From a virus: a DNA stretch of 39,853 nt. Both the position numbers and the translations under genes were made by a program. The notes beneath the pieces were generated by a model that searched no databases, was not told where the DNA came from, and saw only the letters and a program-made list of their open reading frames with translations. The stretch spans positions 1-39,853 of the IMG/VR virus record IMGVR_UViG_3300046459_000303; one strand, written 5' to 3'. Below are positions 13,070 to 39,853 of this stretch, piece after piece; within the stretch, counting starts at the first letter, position 1, and each line of letters starts with the position of its first letter.

Positions 13070-15475
13070 ATGGCTCGCTCGCGCGCCGACATCACGGACT
13101 CGATTGCCGATGCGATCGACTGGCTGAAATTCACGCAATCGGTCTTCGACGCGCAGCGCAAGCGCGAGAACGAGGATCTCGAATTCCAAACCGCGTCCGG
13201 CGCATGGCCGGATGACGTCAGCAAGCAGCGCGCGGCCCAGCCGGCCAACGGGAAGCTCCCGGCCTTACCGGCGCGGCCCATGCTCTCGGTCGCTTCGATC
13301 GATGAACCGATCGCGCTGGTGGCCGCGGAGGAGCGCAAGGCCCATCTCGGGGTCACGATTCACCCGCTCTCCGAAGACGCCACCGACGAGACCGCGAACA
13401 CCTTGCAAGGCTTGTATCGGTCGATTGAAACCGACTCGCACGCGACGAACGTCCGCTCGTGGGCCTATCAACGGGCGTTGTGGGCCGGCTGGGGCGTCTA
13501 CCGCGTCAGTAAACAGTTCGATCCCTACGGCGGCCACCCGTTCGATCAGAAAATCGTACTCGAACGGATTCTGTTTCAGGCCAACGTCTTTCTCGATCCG
13601 TTCGCGCGCAAACCGGATTGGTCCGACATGCGCCGCGCGATGGTGGTCGATGATCTCCCGTGGCCGATCTACAAAGACAAATATCCGAAGTCGCAAGTCG
13701 CCAAATATGGGATGGCCGGTCTTGAGGATCTCTGCGCCGAGTACCCCGAGTGGGCCAACCGCGGCGACAAGGATGACGATACCGCCACCGTGCGCATCGT
13801 GGAGGAGTGGCGCGTGGAAGTCACCGAGCTGCGCCATCACCTGCTCGATGATGGCAGCACGGCGCGGGAGGACGCGATCCCTGAGGATCGCACCGTGGTC
13901 GAAGGCGACGACGCGCGCTTCGCCGTTGAGGAACAGCGGCGCGTGTTCTGGCGCGTGATCAATGCGCGCGAAGAACTGGAACCGGAACAGGAGTGGGATG
14001 GCCAGTACATTCCGCTCGTCCCGACGATCGGCCGCGAACTCCAACCCGTGAAAGGCAAACGCCAGTGGCTCGGCATGGTCTCCAACGCGAAGGACGCCGT
14101 GCGGCTCACCAACTACGCGGCCTCGGGGGCGATCGAGATGGCCGCGCTCGAACCCCGCGCGCCCTTCGAACTCGATCCCGAACAGATCGAAGGCTACGAA
14201 GCGTGGTGGGATCAATCGAACCTGCGCAACTTCCCATACCTGCCGGTGCATCGGTTCCTGCACGGGCAGCCGGTCGAACCGCCGCAGCGCGTGCAAGCGG
14301 ACGTGTCGCGCATGGGGCCGTCGATGCAACTGCTCGGCATGGGCCGCCAGTTCGTGCAGGCGGCGACCGCGATCTATCCGCCGGCCCTCGGCGAGAACAC
14401 CCCCGCACATCGCAGCGGACGCGCGATCACCGCGCTGCAAGATCAGAGCTTGCAAGCCAACACGCCGTACCTCGATAACCTCGCCTCGGTCTCGATGCCA
14501 TACGAGGCGACCGTTGTGCTCGATCTCATCCCGCACGTCTACGATCGGCCCGGTCGCGTCGCGCGCATCCTCGATGAGCAGGACCGCAGCACGCAAGTTA
14601 TGCTCAATGCGCCCTTCACGCGCGATCCCGCGACCGGGCGCCCGCGGGCGCTGCCCACCGGCACCCCCGATGAGCAATCGATGGCCACCGCGATGGTGAA
14701 CAATCCGCAACATCCCGCCAAGCACTACGACCTCAACAAAGGCCGCTACGGCGTGAGCGTCACCATCGGGCAAGGCAAATCGTCGCGCCTGCAGGAAGGC
14801 AACGACGCGATCAGTCAGCTCATGCAAGCCGATCCCGCCCTCGTGCCCGTGCTCGGGCCGGAGTGGGCGAAGTTCCAAGATTTCCCCGGTGCCGACACGA
14901 TCGCCACACTGCTGACCAAGATGCGCGATCACACGATGCCGTGGCTCTCCGATCAGCCGGTGGACGCCGCGATGGATCCGCAGAAACTCATGGCGGAAAA
15001 CCAACAACTCAAGCAGCAACTCGGGATGGCGGGGCACGCGCTCCAGACGAAGCAAATCGAGCAACAGGGCAAGATCCACGTCGCGCACATTCAGGAAGAT
15101 GCCGAGACGCAGCGGTCGCGCGAAGCGAACGAAACCAAAATTACCGTCGCGGCGCTCGGCTCGAAAGTCGAAAACCTGTCGAACCTCATGCAGCTCTTTA
15201 TGGAGGAGCGGTCCAGACTCGGCAGTCAGGCGCACGAAGCGACGCAATCCGCGCTCGATCGGCAGCAGGAGGGCCAGATGGCGGGCGGCGACGCGCTGCA
15301 GGCCGCCCTCCAGCGTCGCCATGACGCGACGATGGCCTCAGGGCAACAACAAGCGACGATGCAGCAGGCGGCCCTTCCGCCGTCCGGCGCCCCCCAGACG
15401 CCAAATGGCGGCCAAATAGCACCCGTCCCACCACCGGGACCGGGGGAAGGGAACGGCCAGCCGCCGCTCGGGTAA
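13070..15475 (+). CDS. Portal protein, P22-like
   Basis: An 801-residue protein of about the size of P22 portal (725). It starts with a helical IADAIDWLKFTQSVFDAQRKRENEDLEF, followed by the capsid-entry core with RPMLSVASIDEPI, SWAYQRALWAGWGVYRV and FLDPFARKPDWSDMRRAM, as in P22-type portals. The C-terminal 150 residues form a long coiled coil rich in Gln and Ala, corresponding to the P22 barrel. The ring forms the DNA channel, packs DNA with the terminase and nucleates the coat. The ribosome site GGGGGGAGAC lies about 10 bases upstream of the ATG. Confidence 0.88.
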   Translation: MARSRADITDSIADAIDWLKFTQSVFDAQRKRENEDLEFQTASGAWPDDVSKQRAAQPANGKLPALPARPMLSVASIDEPIALVAAEERKAHLGVTIHPLSEDATDETANTLQGLYRSIETDSHATNVRSWAYQRALWAGWGVYRVSKQFDPYGGHPFDQKIVLERILFQANVFLDPFARKPDWSDMRRAMVVDDLPWPIYKDKYPKSQVAKYGMAGLEDLCAEYPEWANRGDKDDDTATVRIVEEWRVEVTELRHHLLDDGSTAREDAIPEDRTVVEGDDARFAVEEQRRVFWRVINAREELEPEQEWDGQYIPLVPTIGRELQPVKGKRQWLGMVSNAKDAVRLTNYAASGAIEMAALEPRAPFELDPEQIEGYEAWWDQSNLRNFPYLPVHRFLHGQPVEPPQRVQADVSRMGPSMQLLGMGRQFVQAATAIYPPALGENTPAHRSGRAITALQDQSLQANTPYLDNLASVSMPYEATVVLDLIPHVYDRPGRVARILDEQDRSTQVMLNAPFTRDPATGRPRALPTGTPDEQSMATAMVNNPQHPAKHYDLNKGRYGVSVTIGQGKSSRLQEGNDAISQLMQADPALVPVLGPEWAKFQDFPGADTIATLLTKMRDHTMPWLSDQPVDAAMDPQKLMAENQQLKQQLGMAGHALQTKQIEQQGKIHVAHIQEDAETQRSREANETKITVAALGSKVENLSNLMQLFMEERSRLGSQAHEATQSALDRQQEGQMAGGDALQAALQRRHDATMASGQQQATMQQAALPPSGAPQTPNGGQIAPVPPPGPGEGNGQPPLG

Positions 15476-17123: not shown

Positions 17124-18365
17124 ATGAACACCGTTGCGACGCCGCTGTGGACGACCAAAGAGACCGCCCGGTACTTCATCAATGACCTGACGATTCTCGC
17201 CGATGGGAACGTCAATCGCGATTATGACGACCAGTACGTGGTCGCCGGCGCGAAGGTCGGCAACACCGTCAACGCGCGCATGCCGCAACGCTTCCAAGCG
17301 ATGGACGGGCAGGCGCTTCAACTCCAAAACATTTTCGATCAGGTGGTGCCGATCACCCTGACGAATCAGAAGCAAGTCGCGTTCGGGTACTCCAGCGCGC
17401 AGGCCACCACGGAGCTGGACGACATTCGCCAGCGGTACGCGCAGCCCGGCGCCGAAGCGCTCGCCAACGCGGCGGAAGTGCTGTTCTTTCAGGCGGTCTA
17501 TCGCGACATCTCGAACAACGTCGGCGCCCCCGGATCCACACCGGGCTCGCAGACGCTCTACCTGCAAGCCGGCACGAAGCTCACCGATCTGGCGACACCG
17601 CTACGCGGACGCAAGGCCGTGCTCGATCCGCTCGCGATGCAGACGCTGGCCGGCACCAGTGCCACGCTGTTCAATCCGTCCGCGACCATCAGCGAGAACT
17701 ATCGGATGGGCATGTTCGGGCGTCAGCAGCTCGGGATCGATGAGTGGTATCAGGATCCGGCGCGGCCGGTCCACACCACGGGATCCTTCACCGCCTGTAC
17801 GCCGGTGGTGAACGGCGCGCTGCAGACCGGATCGGTGTTGAACACCAACGGCTGGGCGGTCGGCGCGACGACGCTCAATCGCGGCGACACGTTCACGATC
17901 GCCGGCGTCAACACGCTCAACCCACTCGCGTATTCGAGCAATGGCCGCTTGCAGCAGTTCGTCGTCAAGGCCACCACGTCGGATACGGGCGGCGCGATCG
18001 CGGCGCTCGTGATCGATCCCCCGATCATCACCAGCGGCCAGCTCGCGACGGTCGATGTGTCGCCGGCCGCCGGCGCCGCGATCACCGTGACGGGCGCGAC
18101 GTCGGCCGTAGGCGGCACACTCGCCGCCACCGTCTCGCCGCAGTCGTTTGTCTATCACCCGGATTTCGCCACGTTCGTCATGGCGGATCTCATCAAGCCG
18201 GGCGCGGGCGCGGAGGCGACCGTGGTGAACTCGAAAGCGTTGCGCTTCTCGATTCGCATGGTCGAACAGTACCAGATCGGATCGGACCAACTGCCAACAA
18301 GGCTGGACATCTTGATCGGCGCCGCGACGCTGCAACCCCGTCTCGCGTGTCGCGTGTGGGGCTGA
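17124..18365 (+). CDS. Major capsid protein, P22 coat-like
   Basis: A 413-residue protein, near the 430 of P22 gp5. The N-terminal motif TVATPLWTTKETARYFINDLTILADGNVNRDYDD and the FDQVVPITLTNQKQVAFGYSSAQ segment fit the P22 coat family, an HK97-fold shell protein with an extra insertion domain. The middle part, rich in Gly, Thr and Val (about 215-330), would be that insertion. A GGGAGATGAG ribosome site precedes the ATG. It follows the scaffold gene by 41 bases and should be the most abundant virion protein. Confidence 0.88.
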   Translation: MNTVATPLWTTKETARYFINDLTILADGNVNRDYDDQYVVAGAKVGNTVNARMPQRFQAMDGQALQLQNIFDQVVPITLTNQKQVAFGYSSAQATTELDDIRQRYAQPGAEALANAAEVLFFQAVYRDISNNVGAPGSTPGSQTLYLQAGTKLTDLATPLRGRKAVLDPLAMQTLAGTSATLFNPSATISENYRMGMFGRQQLGIDEWYQDPARPVHTTGSFTACTPVVNGALQTGSVLNTNGWAVGATTLNRGDTFTIAGVNTLNPLAYSSNGRLQQFVVKATTSDTGGAIAALVIDPPIITSGQLATVDVSPAAGAAITVTGATSAVGGTLAATVSPQSFVYHPDFATFVMADLIKPGAGAEATVVNSKALRFSIRMVEQYQIGSDQLPTRLDILIGAATLQPRLACRVWG

Positions 18366-20434: not shown

Positions 20435-21187
20435 ATGTCTACCGTGGCGGACATCCTGACGGCGGCCTTCAGACGCCTCAACGTCGTGGAGAGTAACGCG
20501 GTGCCGTCGCCGGAGGACATGGCCGATGGCTTCCTCCGCTTCAAGGCGATGCTCGGCGTGTGGCGGCTCCAGCGGCTGACCATCCCGTTTGTCCAGCGCG
20601 TCACGACGCCCATCGTGCCCAACCAGCCGACGTACACCGTGGGCACCGGGGGCGCGCTGTTGTGTACGCGTCCCACGCAACCGGCGGCGCTGACGTGGAC
20701 CCTGCTCACCGGCACCGGCCCGACCGCGCTGGAAACACCCCTCACGTTGTTGACGGAGGAACAGGCGATCGCGGTCGCGCAAAAACAACAGCCGGCCGCG
20801 CGGCCGGTCTTCGTGTGGTATCAGCCGGTCAACGGGCTCCCGCCGACGACGACGTTGGGCTTGGCCACGCTCTACCCGGTGCCGCTCGGGTCGGGCCTCA
20901 CGCTCTGTGTCTATGCGCCCATCGGGATCGACAACCCCGCCGCGACCAGTAGCACGCTGGTGGTGCCCGAGGGGTACGACCTCCCGCTGATGGACAACTT
21001 GGCGCGCGTGCTCTGGCCCGAGTGGCGCGAGAACGTGCCGCTCGATCCGGAGCTGCGCGCCAGTGCCATGGAGGGGCTCGGCTGGCTCAAGACCAACAAC
21101 GTGCGCATGCACGATCTCGCGATCGATACCACGTGGTTGTTTCAGGGCTTCGGCAACTACGACATCGACTCGGATCAGGGGAGCTGA
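20435..21187 (+). CDS. Head-tail adaptor, P22 gp4-like
   Basis: A 250-residue protein starting VADILTAAFRRLNVVESNAVPSPEDMADGFLRFKAMLGVW, the pattern of phage head-completion or tail-accessory-factor proteins of the gp4 family. It is longer than P22 gp4 (166 aa), with an extra beta-rich middle part. The C-terminal helices (YDLPLMDNLARVLWPEW) fit the family. It would sit under the portal ring and seal DNA in the head. It overlaps the next gene as TGATG, matching the P22 order gp4-gp10. Confidence 0.75.
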   Translation: MSTVADILTAAFRRLNVVESNAVPSPEDMADGFLRFKAMLGVWRLQRLTIPFVQRVTTPIVPNQPTYTVGTGGALLCTRPTQPAALTWTLLTGTGPTALETPLTLLTEEQAIAVAQKQQPAARPVFVWYQPVNGLPPTTTLGLATLYPVPLGSGLTLCVYAPIGIDNPAATSSTLVVPEGYDLPLMDNLARVLWPEWRENVPLDPELRASAMEGLGWLKTNNVRMHDLAIDTTWLFQGFGNYDIDSDQGS

Positions 21188-22638
21188 TGGAGTTTCGCGG
21201 CTTTGTTGGCGGCTCGTATACGTCGGCGTCGCGCGTGGCCGATAGCGAACTGCTGATGAATTGGTACCCGGAAGCGATCGAATCGCCGAATGCGGCGGTG
21301 CAAGCCGCGCTGTACCCGACGCCGGGCTTTACCACCTTTCTCAACCTCCCGAATGACACCGCCACGCGCGGCCTGTTCAGCATGAACGGCCGCACGCTCG
21401 CCATCGTCGGCGGCACGCTCTACGGCATCAACGGCACGACGGCGGCGCCGACCAGCGCGGCGTACGGGGCGGTGGCCCACGATGCGAACCCGTCGCAGAT
21501 CGTGTTCAACGGCACAATCGGGAATCAAGCCTTCATCGGCAGCGGTGGCAATGGCTACTGTCTGGCGCTCGGGACGAATGCGCTCACGCAACCGCTCACG
21601 AATAAATCCACGCTCGTCGGGATGATCGATGGCTTCGTGATCAGTTTCGATATCAACACCGGCCGGATCTGGCTCTCGAATCTCAATGACTGTACGACGT
21701 GGGATCCGACGCAGTTTGCGCAGCGGTCCACCGCGCCCGATGCGTGGAAGGCGATGATCGTCGTCCCGCCCGACATCTGGATGCTCGGCTCGGTGTCGGG
21801 CGACATCTGGTACAACGCCGGCGCGTATCCGTTCCCGCTCGCCCCGCGCGTCGGGCTCAACTTCAAGTACGGCATCGCCGCGCCCTTCTCTGCCGCCGCG
21901 ATCGGATCGACCGTCATGTGGCTCGCGCAGGCCATCGAAGGCACCGGCGTCGTCGTGCGCAGCGTGGGCTATGACCCGCAACGCGTGAGCACGTACGCCG
22001 TCGAACGGATGATTGCGCAGTACGCCCTGCTGCCCGGCGGGATCGCCAACGCGGAAGCGATGACCTACACGGATCAGGGCCATCCGTTCTACTGCCTCCG
22101 CTTCCCGACGCCCGAACGGACGTGGGTCTACGACCTCACGATGAACACGTGGCACGAACGTGGCTATTGGAACCCCGCGCGCAATCAATTCGAAGTGTGG
22201 CGCCCGCGCGTCCACACCTACGCCTTCGATCGGCACCTCGTCGGCGATGACGTCACCGGCACCATCCAAGCGATGGATGTGTCGTATGGGTCCGAACTCG
22301 ATGGGTCGGCGATTCGGCGCGTGCGCCGGACGCCCGCCGTCTTCAGCGAATTCCGACAAGTGCCGATGCGCGTGGCGGAAGTGCTGCTCGAAAACGGCGT
22401 CGGCAATGCGGTCGCGCCGGGCGATGCCCCGCTCGTCATGTGGCGCAGCAGCGACGACGGCGGGCGCACATTCGGGAACGAACGACAAGGACAGGTCGGC
22501 CGCATCGGCCAGACCCGCGTGCGCGTCCGCTTCTGGCGGCTCGGCATCCCGCGCGATCGCGTCGTGGAACTCTCGGCGAGTGACCCGGTGCCGTGGCGGA
22601 TTTTGTCGTGTTTTCTCAACAACGACGTCGCCACATGA
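21187..22638 (+). CDS. P22 gp10-like packaged DNA stabilisation protein
   Basis: A 483-residue protein close to P22 gp10 (472). It starts EFRGFVGGSYTSASRVADSELLMNWYPE, and later blocks (GRTLAIVGGTLYGINGT, ISFDINTGRIWLSNL, FCLRF...TWVYDLTMNTWHERGYW) form beta-propeller-like repeats with regular Trp-Tyr-Asp strands. The protein closes the tail tube after packaging and keeps DNA in. ATG overlaps the preceding stop. Confidence 0.85.
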   Translation: MEFRGFVGGSYTSASRVADSELLMNWYPEAIESPNAAVQAALYPTPGFTTFLNLPNDTATRGLFSMNGRTLAIVGGTLYGINGTTAAPTSAAYGAVAHDANPSQIVFNGTIGNQAFIGSGGNGYCLALGTNALTQPLTNKSTLVGMIDGFVISFDINTGRIWLSNLNDCTTWDPTQFAQRSTAPDAWKAMIVVPPDIWMLGSVSGDIWYNAGAYPFPLAPRVGLNFKYGIAAPFSAAAIGSTVMWLAQAIEGTGVVVRSVGYDPQRVSTYAVERMIAQYALLPGGIANAEAMTYTDQGHPFYCLRFPTPERTWVYDLTMNTWHERGYWNPARNQFEVWRPRVHTYAFDRHLVGDDVTGTIQAMDVSYGSELDGSAIRRVRRTPAVFSEFRQVPMRVAEVLLENGVGNAVAPGDAPLVMWRSSDDGGRTFGNERQGQVGRIGQTRVRVRFWRLGIPRDRVVELSASDPVPWRILSCFLNNDVAT

Positions 22639-33635: not shown

Positions 33636-33661
33636 GCGTCGGAGTCTCCTTTTAAGTAGTC

Positions 33662-33708
33662 AAGATAATCGAGGTAACGTAAGATGTCAACATCACGTCC
33701 CACGTGGT
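33662..33708 (-). promoter_or_regulatory. Minus-strand promoter with CACGTGGGACGTGATG element
   Basis: TTGACA (33690-33685), 17 bases, TATCTT (33667-33662). CACGTGGGACGTGATG abuts the -35 upstream, as at 36048-36092. The predicted mRNA starts about 20 bases before the RHH gene ATG. The shared upstream element could be an activator or repressor site. Confidence 0.75.
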
Positions 33709-36041: not shown

Positions 36042-36047
36042 GCAGTC

Positions 36048-36092
36048 AAGATAGCCGAAGTAATCTAGGCTGTCAACATCACGTCCCACGTG
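36048..36092 (-). promoter_or_regulatory. Minus-strand promoter, leaderless mRNA predicted
   Basis: TTGACA (36076-36071), 17 bases, TATCTT (36053-36048). The start codon begins seven bases after the -10. CACGTGGGACGTGATG abuts the -35, identical to the block at 33690-33706. This is probably the main promoter of the right minus-strand block. Confidence 0.75.
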
Positions 36093-36232: not shown

Positions 36233-36273
36233 AGCTGGGTGGGGCTGGACGTCAGGTGGCCGGGGGCCGGCCC

Positions 36274-36392
36274 GGAGCCCGCCGCCGGAGCCCGCCGCCG
36301 GAGCCCGCCGCCGGAGCCCGCCGCCGGAGCCCGCCGCCGGGGCCGCCGGAGCCCGCCGCCGGAGCCCGCCGCCGGAGCCCGCCGCCGGAGCC
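36274..36392. repeat. 13-bp minisatellite (GGAGCCCGCCGCC)
   Basis: Eight perfect copies: five in a row, one 9-base variant (GGGGCCGCC), then three more and a partial. It marks the left edge of the compositionally different right-hand segment. Confidence 0.9.
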
Positions 36393-36631: not shown

Positions 36632-36678
36632 TTGACAGTATCTTGACAACCTAAGTAATATTGACAACCTACGTAACA
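36632..36678 (+). promoter_or_regulatory. Promoter and tandem 18-bp repeat of the MoxR operon
   Basis: TTGACA (36632-36637), 18 bases, TAATAT (36656-36661). Downstream copies of TTGACAACCTA(A/C)GTAA begin at 36643 and 36661, a tandem 18-bp direct repeat that overlaps the -10. A repressor bound to it would block transcription. The leader to the ATG is about 40 bases and holds an AGAGG site. Confidence 0.65.
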
Positions 36679-36707
36679 ATCGTTAACCCGCGACAGAGGT
36701 ATGAGAG

Positions 36708-37727
36708 ATGACTATTTCAGAGATGATCGTGTTTTTAGGCAAAGCCATTGCGGCACGGTTGCCAGTACTGATTACTGGTGCTCCCGGTATTGGTAAATCG
36801 GATCTGGTCGACCAGTCGGCACGTGCCGCGGGAGCCGATATGATACTGAGCCATCCAGCGGTATCCGATCCAACAGACGCTAAGGGGTTGCCTTGGGTTG
36901 TTGACGGCGCAGCTACTTTCCTCCCGTTCGGCGAATTGCATCGGGCCATACACGCGACACAACCGACTGTATGGTTCCTAGATGATCTTGGGCAAGCCAC
37001 GCCAGCGGTACAGGCGTCCTTCATGCAATTACTGTTAGCCCGCCGCGTCAATGGCCATGCACTATCAGATTATGTGACGTTCATTGCCGCCACCAACCGA
37101 CGAGCCGATCGCGCGGGCGTTAGCGGCATATTGGAACCCGTCAAAAGTCGGTTCGCGTCGATCGTCGAATTAGTGCCAGACGTCGATTCATGGTGTCAGT
37201 GGGCGTTAGATCACAACGTACCGCCGGAACTCATCGCGTTTCTACGGTTCAAACCGGATCTACTGTGTGCGTTCACTGCGAGTAATGATCTCGTCAATTC
37301 TCCCGTGCCGCGTACATGGTCCCATGCCGCGAAAATTTTAGATCTCGGGTTGCCTGCTGGTGTGCAACATGCCGCGTTAGCGGGAGCGGTGGGTGATGCC
37401 GCCGCCACTGAATTACTCGCTTTCCTCCGGTTGTACGCTCAGCTCCCGAACATTGATCAAATTCTGTTGACGCCTACGACGGCGCCAATACCAACCGCTC
37501 CCGCAAGTCTGTACGCGGTGGCGTCTGCTCTGGCGTACCGAGCGAACAAAGGTAATTTTGATCGCATCGCGCAATACTGCACTCGGCTCATGTCAGCACA
37601 TGGAGAATTTGCGGCTCTGTGCGTACGTGATTGCGTCCGACGTCAACCGGACGTGACACAAACGACGGCTTACGTTCGTCTGGCGGTTGGTGATTTCGGA
37701 CAATTAATTTCAGGAGGAATACGTTAA
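36708..37727 (+). CDS. MoxR-type AAA+ ATPase
   Basis: A 339-residue protein. Walker A GAPGIGKS (24-31), Walker B VWFLDDL (88-94), sensor-1 FIAATNR (N130) and KSRF with the likely arginine finger R148 are all present. The remaining 190 residues form the helical lid and a C-terminal extension. MoxR ATPases act with VWA proteins as chaperone-like machines (RavA-ViaA in E. coli; MoxR and VWA proteins of archaeal virus ATV). It overlaps the next gene as TAATG and is the first gene of the operon. Confidence 0.88.
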   Translation: MTISEMIVFLGKAIAARLPVLITGAPGIGKSDLVDQSARAAGADMILSHPAVSDPTDAKGLPWVVDGAATFLPFGELHRAIHATQPTVWFLDDLGQATPAVQASFMQLLLARRVNGHALSDYVTFIAATNRRADRAGVSGILEPVKSRFASIVELVPDVDSWCQWALDHNVPPELIAFLRFKPDLLCAFTASNDLVNSPVPRTWSHAAKILDLGLPAGVQHAALAGAVGDAAATELLAFLRLYAQLPNIDQILLTPTTAPIPTAPASLYAVASALAYRANKGNFDRIAQYCTRLMSAHGEFAALCVRDCVRRQPDVTQTTAYVRLAVGDFGQLISGGIR

Positions 37728-38590
37728 TGGTTGCTCAGACGTCGATCCATTCGCGGGCTCTGTTGGTATGGTTGCGGATCTCAACATGGTCGGCACGTCG
37801 GTACGACAAAAAGGTTTCAGCGGAAGTGAACGCCAGACACAATGCAAGCGACGATGCCGGACGCTATAACAAAATGTTACTACCGGGAGATGCCACCGCC
37901 TACAAACAATTGACGGCTCTCGCGGGTTCTATTCGCGCGCAACATTACGCGCATACGCTGGCATGGTCTGATGAGGGTTGGCGGTTGTTGCCAACCGCGA
38001 ATTACGCGAACTATACGCAATGGTTGCGCGATCGCCAGCGGGAGTTCACAAACGCCCTGAACGTATTCGCGTCGGACTATCCTGCACTCCGAGCACAGGC
38101 GGCACGGTTGCTGAACGGGTTGTATCGCGATGAGGATTATCCGGACACGCAAGATCTCCGTTCACGGTTTGCACTGTCAGCGGAATTTGAACCAGTACCG
38201 GCACACGGAGATCTACGCGTCGACCTTGGAGCCGACCAGATAGCCATAATAGAATCCGCGATCGCCGACCGTACGACACGTGCCGTACATGACGCGATGA
38301 GAGACGCATGGACACGTCTACACGACGTCGTAGCGAAAATTGCCGATCGTCTGTCACAACCCGATGCAATCTTTCGTGATTCTCTAATCAGCAATGCTGA
38401 GGAAGTATGCGACGTCCTAGAACGGCTGAACGTAACAGACGATCCGAACCTTGAAGCGATGCGCGTACGCGTCCGACGTGAACTCACACGTTTTTCTCCG
38501 GACGTTCTTCGTGATGTACCATCGCATCGCCAGCAAACCGCCGAACGTGCCGCGAATATTCTGCAAGCTATGTCTGGGTTGCTGTCATGA
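37727..38590 (+). CDS. DUF3150-like protein
   Basis: A 287-residue helical protein. VWLRISTWSARRYDKKVSAEV, YNKMLLPGD, HYAHTLAWSDEGWRLLPTANYANY and LYRDEDYPDTQDLRSRFAL follow the DUF3150 pattern (W-S-x-R-x-x-D-K-K, later pW-x-D-x-G-x-R-L-L-P, and DYP). DUF3150 genes are seen in phages beside AAA+ and VWA genes; this is from memory. It is not an enzyme by any motif I can see and may be an adaptor or substrate of the ATPase. AGGAGG precedes the ATG, and ATGA links it to the VWA gene. Confidence 0.75.
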   Translation: MVAQTSIHSRALLVWLRISTWSARRYDKKVSAEVNARHNASDDAGRYNKMLLPGDATAYKQLTALAGSIRAQHYAHTLAWSDEGWRLLPTANYANYTQWLRDRQREFTNALNVFASDYPALRAQAARLLNGLYRDEDYPDTQDLRSRFALSAEFEPVPAHGDLRVDLGADQIAIIESAIADRTTRAVHDAMRDAWTRLHDVVAKIADRLSQPDAIFRDSLISNAEEVCDVLERLNVTDDPNLEAMRVRVRRELTRFSPDVLRDVPSHRQQTAERAANILQAMSGLLS

Positions 38591-39753
38591 ACGCATTAGC
38601 CCGCGTCATAGCGGCACGTGCCGCGTTAGTGCTGGATCAACCGTTTTTCGGTGTACTCGCTCTGCAATTAACGCTTGTGTCGGATGACACGTGCGATACG
38701 GCTTGGACGAACGGCCGATCGCTCGGATTTAATCCGGCATTCGTCGCAACCTTGACCGCCGAACAATTGATCGCTCTCATCGCGCATGAAGTACTGCACT
38801 GCGCTTGCGGTCATCCATGGCGCCGCGATGGGAGAGATCCAGAACGCTGGAATAATGCATGCGATTACGCGATAAATCCCGTGGTACGCGATGCTAGTTT
38901 TACCTTGCCAGACGGCGCCTTATTGGATCCATCGTACGACGGTCGACACGCGGAATACATTTACGATCGGCTCCCGCAGCAGGGAGCGCAGCAGGGAGCG
39001 CAGCAGGGAGCGCAGCAGGGAGCGCAGCAGGGAGCGCAGCAGGGAGCGCAGCAGGGAGCGCAGCAGGGAGCGCAGCAACCGAATCCGCAAGGTGAACTCC
39101 GAGATGCACCAGCAGACACGGATCCAGATTCGCTGAGCGAATCCGATTGGAAAGAAATTACGACGCAAGCACAAGCACTTGCACACGGTACGTTGAGTGC
39201 TGATGCATCGCGTGGGATTACTGCACTGAAACGGCCGATCGTTGATTGGCGATCGGCTCTACGTCGGTTCATGCAAGCGATCGCAATGGCGGATTATTCG
39301 TGGACACGTCCTAGCACGCGTTATCTGGCGTCCGGCTTATTTCTCCCATCGATGAGAAGCGATGCATGCGGCACGATCGTTGTTGCGATCGACACCAGCG
39401 GATCGATCGATACCGTGTTACTTGCGCAATTCCAAAGTGAACTCCGTTCAATCGTCGACGAATTAAAACCGCGATCGGTTCATGTCATCTATTGCGACTA
39501 CGACGTGTGCGGTACTGCGGAATTTTCAACCGACGATCCGATCGATCTAGTGCCGCGTGGCGGTGGCGGTACTCGCTTTGCACCAGTATTCGATCATGTC
39601 GACACGCAACAGATCGAACCGTCTGCACTGGTGTATATGACCGATCTAGATGGCCCGATGCCGGACGTACCGCCCGCCTATCCTGTGCTTTGGGCAAGTA
39701 CGTCCGGACGCGATCGCTCGGTACCGTTCGGCGAAGTAATCCCGTTAGTCTGA
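38587..39753 (+). CDS. DUF2201-type metallopeptidase-like plus VWA protein
   Basis: A 388-residue protein. The N-terminal domain has LIALIAHEVLHCACGH (HExxH with H67, E68, H71, and a third His H76), the zincin-like pattern of the DUF2201 N-terminal domain. Residues 131-162 are eight QQGA repeats. The C-terminal VWA domain has the MIDAS motif DTSGS (D269, S271, S273), GGGGTRF with T329, and TDLDG with D353. In related modules the VWA partner binds the MoxR ring through its metal site. Protease activity is not certain; the domain is only putatively catalytic. Confidence 0.85.
   Translation: MNALARVIAARAALVLDQPFFGVLALQLTLVSDDTCDTAWTNGRSLGFNPAFVATLTAEQLIALIAHEVLHCACGHPWRRDGRDPERWNNACDYAINPVVRDASFTLPDGALLDPSYDGRHAEYIYDRLPQQGAQQGAQQGAQQGAQQGAQQGAQQGAQQGAQQPNPQGELRDAPADTDPDSLSESDWKEITTQAQALAHGTLSADASRGITALKRPIVDWRSALRRFMQAIAMADYSWTRPSTRYLASGLFLPSMRSDACGTIVVAIDTSGSIDTVLLAQFQSELRSIVDELKPRSVHVIYCDYDVCGTAEFSTDDPIDLVPRGGGGTRFAPVFDHVDTQQIEPSALVYMTDLDGPMPDVPPAYPVLWASTSGRDRSVPFGEVIPLV
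38977..39072 (+). repeat. 12-bp in-frame minisatellite (CAGCAGGGAGCG) x 8
   Basis: Eight perfect tandem copies encode QQGA repeats between the peptidase-like and VWA domains. Because the unit is a multiple of three, expansion or loss would change linker length without a frameshift. Confidence 0.95.
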
Positions 39754-39760
39754 CAACCGC

Positions 39761-39787
39761 GGGCTCTGGCCACCGCCGCCAGAGCCC
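39761..39787 (+). terminator. Hairpin after the VWA gene
   Basis: GGGCTCTGG and CCAGAGCCC are perfectly complementary with a 9-base loop, eight bases after the VWA stop codon. No U-run follows. It merges into the terminal minisatellite. Confidence 0.4.
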
Positions 39788-39853
39788 GCCACCGCCGCCA
39801 GAGCCCGCCACCGCCGCCCGAGACCGCCACCGCCGCCCGACCCCGCCGCCCCC
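39781..39853. repeat. 19-bp G+C-rich terminal minisatellite
   Basis: Two perfect copies of AGAGCCCGCCACCGCCGCC and two degenerate ones run to the window edge, so the true length is unknown. It shares GAGCCCGCC with the repeat at 36274-36392. Confidence 0.85.

Follow-up and report, generated by a model that had tools for sequence, protein, structure and literature searches.

We analysed a 39,853-nt stretch of viral DNA (IMG/VR virus record IMGVR_UViG_3300046459_000303; hereafter the window), which is from a phage, as seen from its P22-type coat protein (17124-18362) and portal (13070-15472); a head-closure protein is encoded at 21022-22635. At the right end of the window, at 36708-39753 on the + strand, lie three genes that we call the triad. 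They encode a 339-amino-acid AAA+ ATPase of the MoxR-NorQ-midasin-like kind (AAA_5 and phrog_1297; 36708-37727), a 287-amino-acid DUF3150-type protein (37727-38590), and a 388-amino-acid protein of phrog_1314 in which a zincin-like DUF2201_N domain is fused to the von Willebrand factor A (VWA) domain DUF2201 (38587-39753). All three genes start with ATG and overlap by 1 bp and 4 bp, confirming the open reading frames (ORFs) of an original prediction made from the sequence alone.

We searched the ATPase against profile databases and aligned it with its relatives. The results showed that it scored 30.5 bits against AAA_5 in the Pfam profile search (cut-off 22) and matched phrog_1297 over residues 1-323 (E 2e-68). 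Its Walker A motif, GAPGIGKS, occupies residues 24-31 (36777-36800, + strand), and all 32 aligned ATPases keep Walker A, the sensor-1 asparagine and a candidate arginine finger; a PRxW-type sensor-2 motif is also kept across them, in a variant form in two distant members. Walker A, sensor 1 and the arginine-finger candidate thus agree with the original prediction of intact motifs; Walker B is non-canonical and corrects it. AAA_5 above its cut-off, together with Walker A, sensor 1 and the arginine finger, places the protein among the AAA_5 and, broadly, the MoxR-type AAA+ ATPases; the predicted MoxR label holds in this broad sense only, as the MoxR-specific Pfam model AAA_3 was absent among the matches at E <= 1. 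The best PDB match of the ATPase profile was midasin (E 1e-26).

The zincin-VWA protein matched DUF2201_N (E 6.9e-50), DUF2201 (E 7.7e-29) and, over residues 6-385, phrog_1314 (E 3.6e-96). Both Pfam domains (PF13203 and PF09967) were above their cut-offs, and the phrog_1297 and phrog_1314 profiles were each matched over near full length by adjacent genes of the operon. The HExxH motif (HEVLH, residues 67-71; 38785-38799, + strand) and the DxSxS of the metal ion-dependent adhesion site (MIDAS; residues 269-273; 39391-39405, + strand), completed by T329 and D353, are both present. Among 27 aligned partner proteins, HExxH is kept in 26 and MIDAS in 27, in agreement with the intact MIDAS and HExxH domain originally proposed. 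H76 and E123 are invariant in this alignment and may be further zinc ligands. Between the two domains, a 12-bp tandem repeat (38975-39077, + strand) encodes a Gln/Gly/Ala-rich linker. In a Foldseek search with the model of the protein, the top row was the MDN1-MIDAS/NLE1-UBL complex, a weak match (E 4.5e-3), and the VWA domain of the model aligned to I-domains with Z <= 11.7 and a root-mean-square deviation of 2.5-3.1 over 127-155 residues. PHROGs and many phage records name the phrog_1314 family 'HNH endonuclease'; no HNH domain was found in this family, which carries the DUF2201 domains, and the name is probably a misannotation.

The middle protein had been predicted to be a DUF3150 protein. 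It gave no direct match to PF11348 (DUF3150) in Pfam at E <= 1 or in a second search at E <= 0.1. PF11348 was matched by 3 of 27 relatives (best 7e-6), and one viral record exceeds the PF11348 cut-off; by family and fold the predicted call is supported. The AlphaFold model of the middle protein (mean predicted local distance difference test score 91) shows a small N-terminal alpha/beta part followed by a long helical bundle, and it aligned from end to end with a DUF3150 protein from a phage (TM-score 0.87, E 3.7e-20). The middle protein is a diverged DUF3150 relative, not a direct Pfam member. With the full-length model, Foldseek found no PDB fold at E <= 0.001, and VIA-align returned only helical-bundle matches over residues 160-287, which were uninformative. 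In the Burkholderia cenocepacia plasmid pBcp895-1 (L076:5605-8959), an IS21-type insertion splits the DUF3150 gene and the ATPase, VWA and secretion genes are kept, so that the third subunit is naturally knocked out.

We then collected viral relatives of the triad, 31 loci by an ATPase pattern scan and one by a partner scan, five of the 32 being cut by contig ends. All three genes were present in 25 of the 27 untruncated loci, in the order ATPase - DUF3150 - zincin-VWA in 23. A terminase match was found in 17 of 24 triad contigs searched, indicating that most are phages, and the zincin-VWA protein alone matched 524 phage records. The phages that carry the triad are otherwise unrelated in gene content: apart from the triad and ORFs antisense to it, no near-flank gene was common to more than two viral loci. 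Pairwise distances computed for each of the three proteins correlate with one another (Mantel r 0.90, 0.78 and 0.70; p 0.001), and plasmid triads are interspersed with phage triads in the trees. These three observations indicate that the triad moves as a unit, and by sequence comparison it appears to be a horizontally mobile module. The genes are thus not merely scattered, nor do the domain calls fail in profile searches, either of which would have spoken against the original prediction.

Outside phages, the zincin-VWA protein matched 106 plasmids (best identity 46%), and a relative's DUF3150 protein matched 41 plasmids, mostly from Burkholderiales. A genome scan with the ATPase alone recovered 50 bacterial loci, mostly in Burkholderiales and many of them plasmid-borne; 47 have all three genes. 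A protein of about 506 amino acids (L070:4840-6357 and homologues), with no Pfam or PHROG match, lies 5' of the triad in 39 of the 50. Of the 44 loci with enough downstream sequence, 36 have VirB11 and/or VirB4 next after the triad; these 36 belong mostly to one plasmid lineage. A diverged Undibacterium locus (ATPase identity 35%) keeps the same order of triad, then VirB11/VirB4. PRTRC genes were found 5' of the triad in part of the Burkholderiales lineage only. PRTRC was rejected as an obligate partner, with PRTRC ThiF in 5 of 10 plasmids and in none of the 14 viral records searched.

Other bacterial triads adjoin genes of DNA metabolism. On a Dechloromonas chromosome (L090) the order is RecT, single-stranded DNA-binding protein (SSB), Toprim primase, triad and RadC, with an AcaB-like regulator nearby; this gene order and the regulator suggest that the locus is an integrative element. 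At another locus (L081), SSB lies 5' and a primase 3' of the triad, and on a Rhodovastum plasmid a Toprim-domain gene is directly 5'. SXT/IncC elements presumably carry AAA, DUF3150 and VWA genes near bet and exo; this was checked on a single IncC plasmid, pAR060302. There the order is AAA, a hypothetical gene, ssb, bet, exo, DUF3150 and HExxH-VWA. This set is likely kin to the triad, as judged from gene order, the DUF3150 match and the HExxH plus VWA layout. The metagenome-assembled genome that contains L081 also holds a second, IncC-like AAA - DUF3150 - VWA set (L131; 29-36% identity).

In phages the flanks point the same way. On phage contig L031, a DUF3799 exonuclease gene comes next after the triad, together with a gene for a relative of Bet that is 51% identical to the IncC Bet. 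Among the best 25 of 91 PHROG families matched by 119 phage flank proteins were methyltransferases, DNA polymerases, polymerase/primase, exonucleases VIII and VII, SbcC-like proteins, endonuclease VII, a recombinase, a replisome organizer and terminases, and Pfam agreed; no head or tail proteins were among these 25.

From these gene neighbourhoods we tentatively propose, with confidence somewhat short of even, that the mobile triad removes, remodels or cleaves a protein of the element's DNA replication, recombination or transfer, rather than maturing the virion. The closest solved relatives of the ATPase and zincin-VWA halves are remodelling machines, which supports the MoxR/VWA-type remodelling idea of the original prediction. 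By analogy with midasin and NorQ-NorD, the AAA+ protein would most likely assemble into a ring and exert a pull or a twist on its MIDAS/VWA partner; for NorQ-NorD, cryo-electron microscopy shows a VWA finger inside the AAA+ pore and a force that twists and stretches (PMC13036017). MIDAS would hold the target, and the attached zincin domain may cleave it once remodelled. The DUF3150 protein would be a co-inherited third subunit of the putative complex, probably an adaptor. Action would come early or midway in infection or establishment; the corresponding N4 genes, gp24 and gp25, are middle transcripts (PMC4193335). Of the roles originally offered, virion maturation becomes less likely in general, given the triads in plasmids, which have no virion, the integrative-like loci and the DNA-metabolism neighbours in phages, and host takeover, or element DNA metabolism, fits best.

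Several observations weigh against this proposal. The DNA-metabolism counts among the best 25 of 91 flank families stand without a baseline of random accessory genes, and by these searches a RecT/Bet relative occurs in only 2 of the 32 viral loci. In the window itself, tblastn found no bet, ssb, exo or primase relative, which limits the recombination reading there. The IncC set is too diverged for confident profile alignment to the window families. Walker B reads LDD in the window's clade, versus the canonical DE. In one phage relative (L013, 8938-10113), HExxH is replaced by VKxxQ with MIDAS intact, and there is no DUF3150 gene, so neither is always needed. A more specific version of the proposal is that the triad is an unfoldase-protease that clears a host DNA-end or single-stranded-DNA-binding protein (such as a RecBCD-type nuclease, or an SSB/RecA filament) for recombination or establishment of the element, and would provide Red-like systems that lack gam, SXT/R391 among them, with an exonuclease V inhibitor. 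Such an inhibitor was raised as one possibility by Garriss et al. (PMC2786100); we consider this version a long shot.

Possible, though rather doubtful, is that the triad is an assembly chaperone-protease for a DNA-delivery machine: phages would use it to mature their virions, and conjugative elements their type IV secretion apparatus. The VirB11/VirB4 operon that follows the triad in 36 of 44 Burkholderiales-element loci, including the diverged Undibacterium one, is consistent with this. Iyer et al. (PMC7824862) proposed an assembly role for group 2.2 jumbo phages and cited the MoxR-VWA pair of Acidianus two-tailed virus (ATV) as required for tail assembly. Roseophage RPP1 has genes for four virion proteins close to its gp24/gp25 homologues (PMC4193335). 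The virion mass-spectrometry list of coliphage phAPEC6 contains a 49.52 kDa ATPase; the phrog_1297 homologue of the related phage slurp01 has a computed mass of 49.51 kDa, and the gene order fits. However, gp263c and gp264c, the neighbouring products where the zincin-VWA protein would be expected, are absent from that list. Thymidylate synthase and a PhoH-like protein are on it as well, which suggests that soluble proteins may come along with the virions. The N4 genes are middle rather than late, and proximity of triad and terminase was not significant over 18 contigs (Fisher p 0.15-0.32). The secretion-linked loci come mostly from the one plasmid lineage, and triads of the Variovorax, Rhodovastum and Simplicispira plasmids and of L090 have no secretion genes in the stretch examined.

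Base composition sets the operon apart from the rest of the window. Its GC content is 55.3% versus 64.3%, and its GC at third codon positions (GC3) is about 0.52-0.54 versus about 0.76-0.85 in the structural genes; the helix-turn-helix gene has 0.64. CGATCG occurs at 5.3 versus 1.7 per kb and is also raised in the triads of three other contigs (G018, G014 and G020). The shift in composition that had been predicted was thereby confirmed. Just 5' of the operon lies a 13-bp tandem array (CCGGAGCCCGCCG, 9.6 copies; 36272-36392), and 3' of the operon a 19-bp array (GCCACCGCCGCCAGAGCCC; 39769-39847) inside which the contig ends; the two contain related repeat units. The predicted position at a genome edge is not supported, as the contig simply stops in this second array and no end overlap was found.

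The abrupt drop in GC and GC3 directly past the 13-bp array would also be expected if the operon were foreign to the phage and the contig a chimera joined at 36272-36392. G033, the relative closest to the window (DNA identity mostly 82-87%, about 86% for the aligned blocks), is collinear with it from 199 to about 36108, where the G033 contig begins inside a different tandem array, and the junction through 36272-36392 was seen in one contig only. A reading of G033 as a relative lacking the triad was dropped because its contig stops at the same array. Against a chimera, related units stand on both sides of the operon, and three contigs encoding a relative of the window portal carry the triad. 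One of these, G018, is circular through a 27-bp end overlap (41,252 bp); its triad lies about 3.3 kb 5' of the portal and divergent from it. In the window the location differs, and triad and structural genes share one orientation. Foreign-looking composition, occurrence in unrelated phages, and another site and orientation in portal-sharing phages fit imported cargo rather than core genes, as had been suggested; a chimeric contig is a minor, improbable alternative.

The mobile distribution, variable location and foreign composition of the triad would also suit a conflict module for superinfection exclusion or counter-defence, in which the zincin or the ATPase disables a host or rival protein, and MoxR-VWA cores do serve in predicted conflict systems (PMC7159879). 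We consider this unlikely. None of the three proteins had a PADLOC match at E <= 1, and PADLOC matches in the flanks (best 25 of 84 families) were mostly DNA methyltransferases. The bpMoxR model stayed below its cut-off (13.7 versus 27 bits), no VMAP or other MoxR-vWA conflict-system model was matched in Pfam, and the aligned VWA relatives carry no variable effector domains. The defence cassette of the original prediction accordingly found no positive evidence. Very improbable is that the ATPase and its partner are a viral metal-chelatase pair of the CobS/CobT kind, boosting cobalamin synthesis. AAA+/VWA pairs are annotated cobST in archaeal and bacterial tailed viruses, with cyanophage cobT reportedly often annotated as a peptidase (PMC8651126), but no CobS or CobT Pfam model was matched by the triad at E <= 1, DUF2201_N with its HExxH is clearly of the zincin type, and cobalamin synthesis explains neither the DUF3150 subunit nor the recombination and transfer neighbours.

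Upstream of the ATPase gene, a sigma-70-like promoter match (TTGACA-18-TAATAT; 36632-36661, + strand) lies 46 bp 5' of the start; promoter-like matches in this region are near chance (3 versus 2.1 expected). The elements TTGACAACCTAAGTAA / TTGACAACCTACGTAA are repeated at 36636-36680, overlap this match and may form an operator. Outside the operon, two 49-bp repeats (36044-36092 and 33658-33706; 86% alike) contain ACGTCCCACGTG and are possible regulatory sites.

The ATPase and zincin-VWA pair and its chaperone proposal are already known, from N4 gp24/gp25 and, in Iyer et al. 2021, from jumbo phages (PMC7824862); the original prediction had overlooked this, and likewise the sharing of the set with conjugative plasmids. 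The N4 genes, core genes of Schitoviridae, likewise encode an AAA+ ATPase near a zincin-VWA protein (PHROGs 1297 and 1314), but at about 30% identity to the window. The MoxR-vWA pair of group 2.2 jumbo phages has the same architecture with an N-terminal metallopeptidase; it was proposed for virion assembly, and the part of the paper available mentions neither a DUF3150 subunit nor plasmid relatives. The N4-like, jumbo, phage G and phiFa regions were searched, and none showed a DUF3150 gene close to the pair. The IncC set shares the three component kinds in the same order, and its VWA protein has an N-terminal HEAAH and a MIDAS of DMSSS, whereas ssb, bet and exo stand between its AAA and DUF3150 genes and PF09967 was unmatched on the IncC plasmid. 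Midasin (Mdn1/Rea1) and NorQ-NorD also remodel a target with an AAA+ motor and a MIDAS/VWA unit (PMC8837202, PMC13036017); they have neither zincin nor DUF3150, and the mechanism is carried over by analogy only. RavA-ViaA and ATV p618/p892 likewise pair a AAA+ protein with a VWA co-chaperone, but they lack a metallopeptidase domain and gave no specific match to the window proteins. In the literature searched, which covered no subscription journals, DUF3150 was unmentioned and DUF2201 was mentioned with its function not addressed; the constant DUF3150 third gene, its sharing among phages, plasmids and chromosomes, and the annealing-recombination linkage were undescribed there.

If a substrate is found, this would be, to our knowledge, the first case in prokaryotes of a midasin-like remodeller doubling as a protease. 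In a large phage family the ATPase and zincin-VWA genes are core genes, with no known function. A fixed third subunit across unrelated phages, conjugative plasmids and chromosomal loci, together with the diverged IncC ssb-bet-exo counterpart, makes element DNA metabolism or transfer, rather than virion assembly, the likeliest setting in which the pair acts. Its role is thereby open to direct testing, in N4 with E. coli K-12 as host or in elements of the SXT type.

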